NCBI RefSeq assembly: GCF_005849285.1 | Contig: NZ_CP040517.1 | Location: 378,501-442,500 of the forward strand | Source: Luteithermobacter gelatinilyticus | GTDB lineage: Bacteria; Pseudomonadota; Alphaproteobacteria; Sphingomonadales; Emcibacteraceae | DNA length: 64,000 bases | Direction: 5' to 3' | Part shown: positions 1,202 through 24,550 of the stretch, piece after piece | Numbering within the stretch: position 1 is the first letter of the stretch | Layout: each line of letters opens with the position of its first letter | Position numbers and translations under genes: made by a program | The notes under the pieces: model-generated | Seen by the model: only the letters and a program-made list of their open reading frames with translations | Told to the model about the DNA's origin: nothing | The model's database searches: none

Positions 1202-1239
1202 TAGAGTGAATTGTGAATAGGTTGGCTCAATTCACTCTA
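1202..1239. repeat. 38-bp dispersed palindromic element, copy 1
   Basis: Ends TAGAGTGAATTG and CAATTCACTCTA form a perfect 12-bp inverted repeat around a 14-bp centre TGAATAGGTTGGCT. The sequence is the exact reverse complement of the copy at 16094-16131. It lies between murA and the DUF2948-like gene in an apparent operon, so it is probably transcribed. Confidence 0.95.
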
Positions 1240-16093: not shown

Positions 16094-16131
16094 TAGAGTG
16101 AATTGAGCCAACCTATTCACAATTCACTCTA
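16094..16131. repeat. 38-bp dispersed palindromic element, copy 2
   Basis: Exact reverse complement of the copy at 1202-1239, with perfect TAGAGTGAATTG / CAATTCACTCTA ends. Lies just beyond the terminator of the monooxygenase gene. Confidence 0.95.
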
Positions 16132-20489: not shown

Positions 20490-20544
20490 TAGAGTGAATT
20501 GAGCCAACCTATGCACCATTCACTCTCTATGCACAATTCACTCT
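20490..20544. repeat. Dispersed element copy 3 with partial tandem extension
   Basis: TAGAGTGAATTGAGCCAACC starts 8 bp after the GMC stop codon and runs to about 20527; a second right half (CTATGCACAATTCACTCT, 20527-20544) follows directly, as if the 3' half had been duplicated. Confidence 0.88.
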
Positions 20545-23250: not shown

Positions 23251-23275
23251 ATAAAAAAGCCGCGCGAGGCGCGGC
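23251..23275 (-). terminator. Rho-independent terminator downstream of GntR and repeat cluster
   Basis: GCCGCGC-GAG-GCGCGGC stem with TTTTTT on the minus strand. The nearest upstream minus-strand gene is the GntR regulator (ends 23654), so its transcript would include the whole 23331-23636 repeat cluster as a long 3' region. Confidence 0.8.
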
Positions 23276-23330
23276 AGATCGGGCGAGAGGGATTTAATCC
23301 TGATAAGGCTTAAGACGCAGGTCTTGATCC

Positions 23331-23600
23331 TAGCGTGAATTGTGAATAGGTTGACCCATTCTGCCGGTCAGGTCTGGTTCAGGAGCCAGGGGTTTGGCGC
23401 AGGCCATACTGGCGGTACGGCCAAGCCAAACCCCGCCGGAACTGGACCAGATCGGCCCGGCCCTTCGGGTTGGCGGCTTGGGGCCGCTCACTTTGTCAGA
23501 CGCCTGGCCCGATACCCCGCATCGCCCGGCGCCGTCTTCCGCGTGAGGCGGGCCACAATCCGCCAACAGAATTGAGCCAACCTATTCACAATTCACTCTA
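23331..23600. mobile_element. 270-bp MITE-like element with long terminal inverted repeats
   Basis: The left end (TAGCGTGAATTGTGAATAGG, then TTGACCCATTCTG) and the reverse complement of the right end (TAGAGTGAATTGTGAATAGG, then TTGGCTCAATTCTG) match over about 33 bp. Between them are two strong hairpins: 23373-23451 (inner perfect 10-bp stem GGGGTTTGGC / GCCAAACCCC) and 23469-23567 (GTTGGCGG / CCGCCAAC plus extensions). No open frame of note is inside, so it is non-autonomous. The solo 38-bp copies elsewhere look like its ends joined. Ends in TA; no transposase is in this window. Confidence 0.8.
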
Positions 23601-23636
23601 GCGTGAATTGAGCCAACCTATGCACAATTCATTCTA
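23599..23636. repeat. Dispersed element copy in tandem with the 270-bp element
   Basis: A complete 38-bp unit (TAGCGTGAATTGAGCCAACC to AATTCATTCTA) sharing its first TA with the end of the 270-bp element. Two substitutions at the ends make the inverted repeat imperfect. It lies 17 bp after the GntR stop. Confidence 0.9.
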
Positions 23637-23653: not shown

Positions 23654-24325
23654 TTACGATGCCTTTCCGGTGCACTCGCAGGACAGGATCAGGGTCAGCA
23701 GATTTTCCACCAGCGCCGTGCGGGCATCGTGATAGGTTTTCAGGGCATCGCGCAGGCCGCGATAGTTTTTCTGATAATACAGGCGGCACAGATCCAGAAG
23801 TTCGGTTTGGGCGTTTGGCAGGAAATCGGGTTCATGCAGGCGAATGTAATGGAGACGGTCATTGATGTTCCGAATTTTCCGGACAATTTCGCGGTTGTGA
23901 GACTGGCTTGCCACGTGATTGAATAATTGTTCCGTAATCTGGACCAGGGCCTCGGCCTGGATCTGGGCCTCAGCCTCTGTTGGTGACGGCTCGGGAAATA
24001 GTCGCGGGGGGCGGACCAGGCCGGTCACCAGATGGCCTTTACGCAAGGCCCCTAGCGACCAGTCCAGCAGCAGCCGGTTCAGGTCATACAGATTGCGGAT
24101 TTCATGCTCCGTGGGGTGATGGACAAAAAAACCGATTTGTGGCACATCGTCAATCAGCCCTTCGGAAACCAGCCGGTTGAGAACTTCCCGCACAGGTGTG
24201 GTGCTGACCCCCAGATCATCGGCCAGATGGCCAATATTAAGCCGGGTTCCGGGTTTGATATGATAGGTCATGACCTGTTGTTTCAGCTGGTCATAGACCC
24301 GTTTGATTACAACCTCTGTGGCCAT
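23654..24325 (-). CDS. GntR-family regulator, FCD type
   Basis: A 223-residue regulator with an N-terminal winged helix (VIKRVYDQLKQQVMTYHIKP, GTRLNIGHLADDLGVSTTPV, REVLNRLVSEGLI; residues about 7-65) and a C-terminal helical effector domain with spaced His residues as in the FCD group. It is bracketed by copies of the dispersed repeat: a cluster just after its stop and one 20 bp before its start. It may regulate the adjacent receptor or the glyoxalase-fold gene; position is the only evidence. Confidence 0.9.
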   Translation of the reverse strand: MATEVVIKRVYDQLKQQVMTYHIKPGTRLNIGHLADDLGVSTTPVREVLNRLVSEGLIDDVPQIGFFVHHPTEHEIRNLYDLNRLLLDWSLGALRKGHLVTGLVRPPRLFPEPSPTEAEAQIQAEALVQITEQLFNHVASQSHNREIVRKIRNINDRLHYIRLHEPDFLPNAQTELLDLCRLYYQKNYRGLRDALKTYHDARTALVENLLTLILSCECTGKAS

Positions 24326-24345: not shown

Positions 24346-24383
24346 TAGAGTGAATTGAGTCAACTTATTCGCAATTCACTCTA
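24346..24383. repeat. 38-bp dispersed element, copy 5
   Basis: TAGAGTGAATTGAGTCAACT to GCAATTCACTCTA; perfect 12-bp ends, three changes in the centre. Located 20 bp upstream of the GntR start codon, within its leader. Confidence 0.93.
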
Positions 24384-24512: not shown

Positions 24513-24550
24513 TAGAGTGAATTGAGCCAACCTATTCGCAATCCACTCTA
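24513..24550. repeat. 38-bp dispersed element, copy 6
   Basis: TAGAGTGAATTGAGCCAACC to CAATCCACTCTA, same orientation as copy 5, with 129 bp of unassigned sequence between them. Ends two bases before the stop codon of the VOC gene. Confidence 0.93.

Follow-up and report, generated by a model that had tools for sequence, protein, structure and literature searches.

MITEs are usually seen as side products of a single insertion sequence, with ends that are kept and an inside that is dispensable. RUP (repeat unit of pneumococcus) is described, in the accessible parts of two sources, as non-coding, with TA ends and a terminal sequence common to the resident IS630-Spn1, and as over-represented between convergent genes (PMC2229807, PMC3049150). 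The window analysed here (64,000 nucleotides of Luteithermobacter gelatinilyticus, contig NZ_CP040517.1, positions 378,501–442,500) contains an element at 23331–23600 which is like RUP in being non-coding, in its TA ends, in a tip common to a resident IS630 and in its bias towards convergent genes; by analogy, it would work as RUP does with IS630-Spn1. RUP differs in its length (107 bp), and in those same parts of the sources it is described in streptococci only and no interior shared with other-ended elements is described.

Correia/NEMIS (about 107–155 bp) and ERIC (127 bp) are, like the element, TA-flanked, palindromic and highly structured MITEs, and differ from it in length and hosts; in the accessible text of the source no matching transposase is named for them and no single interior with exchanged ends is described (PMC2229807). 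By description, the nearest alphaproteobacterial relatives in the accessible literature are the CIR elements, which have TA ends and two stem-loop arms joined by a linker; on this comparison of descriptions only, they differ in being about 110 bp long, in having no terminal inverted repeat and in containing GANTC (PMC2229807). REP/RAYT systems are similar in that a genome contains many short intergenic palindromes, whereas the present element has TA..TA ends, inverted repeats and DDE transposases. IS630-family insertion sequences have their tip and probably also the TA duplication in common with the element, which lacks a transposase gene.

Taken as a whole, the element is in our judgement probably a non-autonomous MITE, moved in this host by IS630 and belonging to a widespread family with a conserved interior and tips that differ between hosts. 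What was observed is the number of copies, their boundaries and targets, the tips held in common, the homology of the interiors and their covariation; transposition in trans and an interior that acts at the DNA level are the proposed parts of this reading. The wide conservation of the interior, the differing ends and the insertions on stop codons go beyond the initial annotation.

Boundaries and fold of the element

The element starts with TAGCGTGAATTGTGAATAGGTTG and ends with CAACCTATTCACAATTCACTCTA. Its interior of about 220 bp consists of two large, mutually inverted hairpins around a mini-hairpin. The features of the locus are as follows.

23331..23600, plus strand: full-length MITE copy, 270 bp, TA to TA (copy number and copy alignment)
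23331..23363, plus strand: left terminal inverted repeat, made up of a host-specific tip and the inner arm GGTTGACCCATTCTG (the tip agrees with the left end of the resident IS630)
23363..23461, plus strand: hairpin I, inverted homologue of hairpin II (covarying helices 2–4; opposite-strand matches of the hairpin-II model)
23461..23469, plus strand: central mini-hairpin CCCTTCGGG (near-invariant across genomes)
23469..23567, plus strand: hairpin II, whose GATG(N)CCCGCATCG apex is conserved (covarying helices 6–8; basis of model R1)
23567..23600, plus strand: right terminal inverted repeat (arm complementarity and copy alignment)
23599..23636, plus strand: 38-bp derivative, terminal TA in common with the right end of the full element
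23259..23275, minus strand: intrinsic-terminator-like site 3' of the GntR gene and the element (consensus match only)
23654..24325, minus strand: putative GntR-type regulator gene, upstream of the element (ORF; family as assigned in the initial annotation)

The initial annotation had described terminal inverted repeats ending in TA, two stem-loops and no coding frame. The repeats were recovered as arms at 23330–23358 and 23573–23601, which are 90% complementary over 29 bp, and TA is present at both ends. The second stem-loop (23469–23567) agrees with the consensus helix, and the first, originally given as 23373–23451, extends further, over about 23363–23461. The statement that there is no coding frame holds in essence. 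Two ORFs of 77–78 amino acids that overlap each other are present; a coding role was rejected because the 13-bp repeat units and single-base indels between copies would shift any frame. The initial annotation was also correct in placing the element between the GntR gene, which stops at 23654, and a minus-strand terminator-like site (23275–23259).

The fold was compared with that of 200 shuffled sequences, none of which was as good (z = −8.1 with RNA and z = −7.1 with DNA parameters). Comparison with Rfam gave a chance-level match only for the element (E = 0.68) and none in relatives.

Copies and 38-bp units in the genome

The initial annotation would have dropped its MITE interpretation had no second copy of the interior been found. 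A search of the genome (3,145,891 bases, one contig) yielded 27 full-length or near-full-length copies of 269–296 bp at 85–100% identity, one of which (L021) is without its left end, together with partial copies; the 283 and 296 bp length variants result from extra 13-bp units of GTCAGACGCCTGG. Copy contexts were read from the sequence stretches around the matches. The 27 full copies and 63 verified 38-bp units have differing flanks and so lie at unrelated sites, and the element carries terminal inverted repeats and no transposase. The element family is thus a MITE, i.e. a non-autonomous transposon, as first supposed from its non-coding sequence and its repeats, and the many copies at unrelated TA sites demonstrate, at the level of sequence, that it has been mobile in the past.

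The 38-bp pattern was matched 148 times (both strands, at most three mismatches, arms of full elements included) against zero times for the reversed control. At least 63 of the 38-mers were read with their flanks, and nearly all of these run from TA to TA at unrelated sites. An apparent strand bias of the 38-mers proved to be an artefact of the matches listed. In addition to the unit that abuts the full element, the window contains the following.

1202..1239, minus strand: 38-bp derivative (genomic copy at 379702)
16094..16131, plus strand: 38-bp derivative (genomic copy at 394594)
20490..20527, plus strand: 38-bp derivative, right end partly altered
24346..24383, plus strand: 38-bp derivative
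24513..24550, plus strand: 38-bp derivative

The 38-bp unit is composed of the left tip TAGAGT, GAATTG and the remainder of the right arm, just as a deletion that joins the two GAATTG copies within a single element would produce. The proposal that these units are internal-deletion products, with one arm joined to the opposite tip, is therefore exact as to the junction. As an account of the units as mere deletion products it falls short, since only 15 of the 63 (three of 41 core haplotypes) have an arm sequence that occurs in full elements; some haplotypes recur among 38-mers only and several units share variants absent from all full elements, so part of the 38-mer population has probably multiplied or aged separately. 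The 38-bp units would be one-arm derivatives formed via the short repeat GAATTG which may move independently. The reverse order, in which the 38-bp unit is an original REP-like repeat and the 270-bp form captured a structured segment between two units, would account for the excess of 38-mers over full copies and for the variants that they alone share; it is nevertheless very improbable, given that the interior, together with its matched ends, is of old origin and wide distribution and that joining the two GAATTG repeats of a full element predicts the 38-mer exactly.

About ten of the 27 full copies (counted by eye) adjoin a 38-mer or fragment with the terminal TA in common, an arrangement that fits insertion into a YTAR created by an element end. 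Three 38-mers (at 578022, 586125 and 1595313; L207, L208 and L195) have the downstream flank gtcttctgac in common and differ in their upstream flanks; another repeat may begin there.

Resident IS630 element and shared tips

Two DDE_3 proteins were found in the own genome (E = 6.6e-37 in one search and 8.8e-37 in a second) and were assigned to the IS630 family by NF033545 (1.1e-45). Both are located within 1058-bp IS630 elements that run from TA to TA (L031 and L032) and differ at ten positions. In each (L031:971–2028, L032:971–2028) the transposase is divided between two frames that overlap at an A-run, an arrangement suggestive of programmed −1 frameshifting.

The left end of the IS630 element, TAGAGTGAATTGTGAAAAGGTTGGGTC, has 25 of 27 bases in common with the MITE tip and the right end has 19 of 27. 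The 28 IS630 ends taken from other species match the tip at 12–19 of 27 bases, so the link between this IS630 and the MITE is specific. An autonomous IS with matching ends, which the initial annotation had recommended looking for, is thereby present in the genome. Mobility and end-matching of the element are well supported, and the resident IS630-type transposase probably moves the MITE in trans: it would recognize the tip of about 25 bp common to the MITE and the IS. No IS630 with the same tip as the MITE was found in six other MITE-bearing genomes that were searched; the one intact IS recovered among them (in G282) has a different tip.

IS5-type elements of the own genome were rejected as partners, as the search turned up no end similar to the MITE tip. 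What may be another IS, about 848 bp long and with ends CCTAGGCTCAGGAC, was noted at L034:1475–2322 (genome about 77928–78775), some 1 kb away from a MITE-like arm (L034:521).

Conserved interior in other genomes

When 385 genomes of the class, which was taken to be Alphaproteobacteria from the hosts of transposase relatives, were searched with plain DNA, related interiors were obtained at 68–78% identity, the best matches ending about 20 bp short of the element ends. Weak matches around 1e-4 (L255–L259) were dropped because no element architecture was seen. The whole elements that were extracted were 270–272 bp long (one 287 bp) and bounded by perfect or near-perfect TA..TA repeats, the sequence of which differed in each genome. 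Their alignment supports the outer stem, hairpin I, the mini-hairpin and hairpin II. Double changes were found at 51 of 93 pairs and all five covariation measures were equalled in 0 of 500 shuffles; the covariation score was 0.497 compared with 0.168 for shuffled data and a maximum of 0.12 when the structure was slid.

A covariance model (R1) was built from hairpin II alone. It matched 40 of the 385 class genomes, many with several copies, and 13 of 398 genomes drawn from the whole phylum, five of them outside the class. The element ends lie outside the model, and flanking inverted repeats are therefore an independent check on its matches: a near-perfect 20-bp inverted repeat surrounds 56 of the 62 R1 matches not cut by contig ends, with the arms mostly 125–130 bp upstream and 29–32 bp downstream of the match, whereas random places reached a maximum of 14 of 22. 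The flanking repeat is also present at most of the weak phylum-draw matches put to this check, among them three from outside the class. In many copies the hairpin-II model matches hairpin I on the opposite strand. Among 74 distinct sequences 25 of the 28 modelled pairs of hairpin II covary, in an alignment fitted to the model.

The main rival interpretation is that of an ordinary IS630-derived MITE with passenger DNA as its interior, the pairing of which is kept by template switching between the arms of the palindrome during replication. Such switching can produce strong Watson–Crick covariation without selection, the copies are multi-copy and mobile by nature, and it is almost only Watson–Crick pairs that vary together (wobble makes up 1.8% of the paired hairpin-II cells). 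Arm correction by itself does not conserve loops or length, however, and the length near 270 bp and the motifs CCCTTCGGG and GATG..CATCG are kept across families and even classes; the homologous interior is also joined to unrelated tips, as described below. We regard this alternative as rather unlikely. The preferred reading, a mobile element with a conserved interior, would have that interior act as DNA: folded into a cruciform or as a single strand, it would draw the two ends together or be bound by a host factor, and such a function would stay useful whichever TA-targeting transposase moves the element.

TAGAGC..GCTCTA palindromes were observed in G048 and G051 (the genomes of L093 and L153): a Hyphomicrobiales MAG has dozens of near-identical 52-bp copies, and a Rhizobium has such palindromes in pairs 12 bp apart (about 115 bp in total), an arrangement similar to that described for CIR. 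The palindromes may be minimal units comparable to the 38-mers. Raw TAGAGC..GCTCTA counts in other genomes were uninformative, as the reversed control was equal or higher; the sequences listed nonetheless include evident repeat families.

Different ends on one interior

Most tips in other genomes consist of TAGAGC/T plus variable bases, as in IS630 ends. In several families, a clade of interiors has TAGCCCGCATTTCTCACC-like tips instead, which are IS1380-like. Genome G112 contains an intact IS1380 element with CTAGCCCGGATTTCTCACACTG at both ends; for comparison, MITE tips include CTAGCCCCTATTTCTCACC. For an IS1380 of G240 a single end was found, TAGCCCGGATTTCTCACC, and over 18 bases it shows no difference from the MITE tip of G334, a genome of the same genus. 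An IS1380 with a similar tip is thus present in the same genome (G112) or genus (G240/G334); no IS1380 match was obtained in the other searched genomes with an IS1380-like MITE tip (G344, G332 and G421). Further tips at R1 matches, CTAGGGCGTGTCATCAATCC, TAGGGCCTGCTCACAC and TAGGAGCCTGTCTGAG, may resemble IS5/IS427 ends.

Interiors of the IS1380 type, together with one that has an unassigned tip, scored 40–78 bits against a sequence-only profile of the IS630 type, compared with 5 bits for the best of 1200 structure-preserving decoys. These scores and the alignment show that the two types of interior are homologous. In a tree of interiors the IS1380-type tips fall essentially in one clade, so the exchange of ends may be rare and ancient; in this tree L280 and L333 carry wrong labels and L302/L303 are oddly placed, possibly because they are reversed.

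On the preferred reading the element belongs to a family in which the interior of about 220 bp is conserved and the tips vary by host, resembling the ends of different transposase families. Whether the family is defined by a folded-DNA payload that has combined with ends from two or more unrelated families of transposase (IS630 and IS1380, perhaps also IS5/IS427) and kept its interior, its length of about 270 bp and its TA/YTAR target, as a transposase-agnostic hitch-hiker, is in our estimate an evenly balanced question. Set against the usual view of MITEs, the inside would here be kept over large distances and the ends would follow the local transposase. If so, the fold itself is what is selected, and the importance of secondary structure in MITEs becomes directly testable with one transposase and altered interiors. 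Neither a description of one interior carried between transposase families nor an existing name for the element was found in the open literature; subscription papers may contain an earlier description of either.

Target sites and neighbouring genes

An IS630 preference for CTAG is known. In the flanks of 81 clean-ended copies, CTAG was enriched 26-fold and CTAA/TTAG tenfold, giving the target YTAR. Mixed flanks such as T..G occur, so the duplication would be of TA and not of four bases; nearly all copies have TA at each end, and this, with the YTAR context, is consistent with TA duplication. In the proposed mechanism the IS630 transposase would insert the MITE at the TA inside YTAR, preferably CTAG.

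None of 90 elements lies within a predicted gene, though about 82% of the window is coding; genes were called with a simple codon-usage gene finder, which is crude, so that all gene-context counts are approximate. Among the classifiable 38-mers 28 of 53 lie between convergent genes, compared with eight of 45 gene pairs in the window. On this mechanism, surviving copies would be confined almost entirely to the space outside genes, for the most part at 3' ends.

RNA-level roles, either the protection of mRNA 3' ends or service as a processing site, have been proposed for ERIC and Correia repeats. By analogy, and in line with the action on RNA stability suggested in the initial annotation, the element could be a mobile regulatory RNA, a cloverleaf transcribed with the upstream gene that protects or exposes mRNA 3' ends or is itself a processing site. 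The very stable fold, the convergent-gene bias, the many elements that adjoin 3' ends and the position of 23331–23600 between a gene and its terminator would all suit such a role. The harmlessness of 3' ends explains the position bias equally well, and a search for selection at the RNA level through an excess of wobble pairs gave no consistent signal: G-U and A-C counts were 36 and 58 in hairpin II (76 sequences) and 27 and 11 in the hairpins of the ten-sequence alignment. With wobble rare and no consistent one-strand excess of G-U over A-C, the data weigh weakly against selection as RNA, and we consider this role improbable.

The neighbouring gene stops exactly on the element's own TAG in 30 of 90 cases, as against seven of the 59 free intergenic YTAR sites of the window (p = 0.002). 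Random trimming of genes by insertions is expected to reach the three frames about equally; overlaps in the stop frame outnumbered those in the other frames by 30 to 5 (p = 2e-10). The seven tested genes that end on an element TAG have Pfam domains, mostly extending near the C-terminus. The element begins with TAG, and insertion into the TA of a stop codon consequently keeps the stop at the same place; this offers a simple explanation of how elements of this kind are able to multiply in a dense genome without doing harm. At L008 a single element provides the stop for two convergent genes, a Na+/H+ antiporter gene and a purH-like gene.

As a separate observation, CTAG is scarce in the window, with 28 occurrences compared with about 244 expected from base composition.
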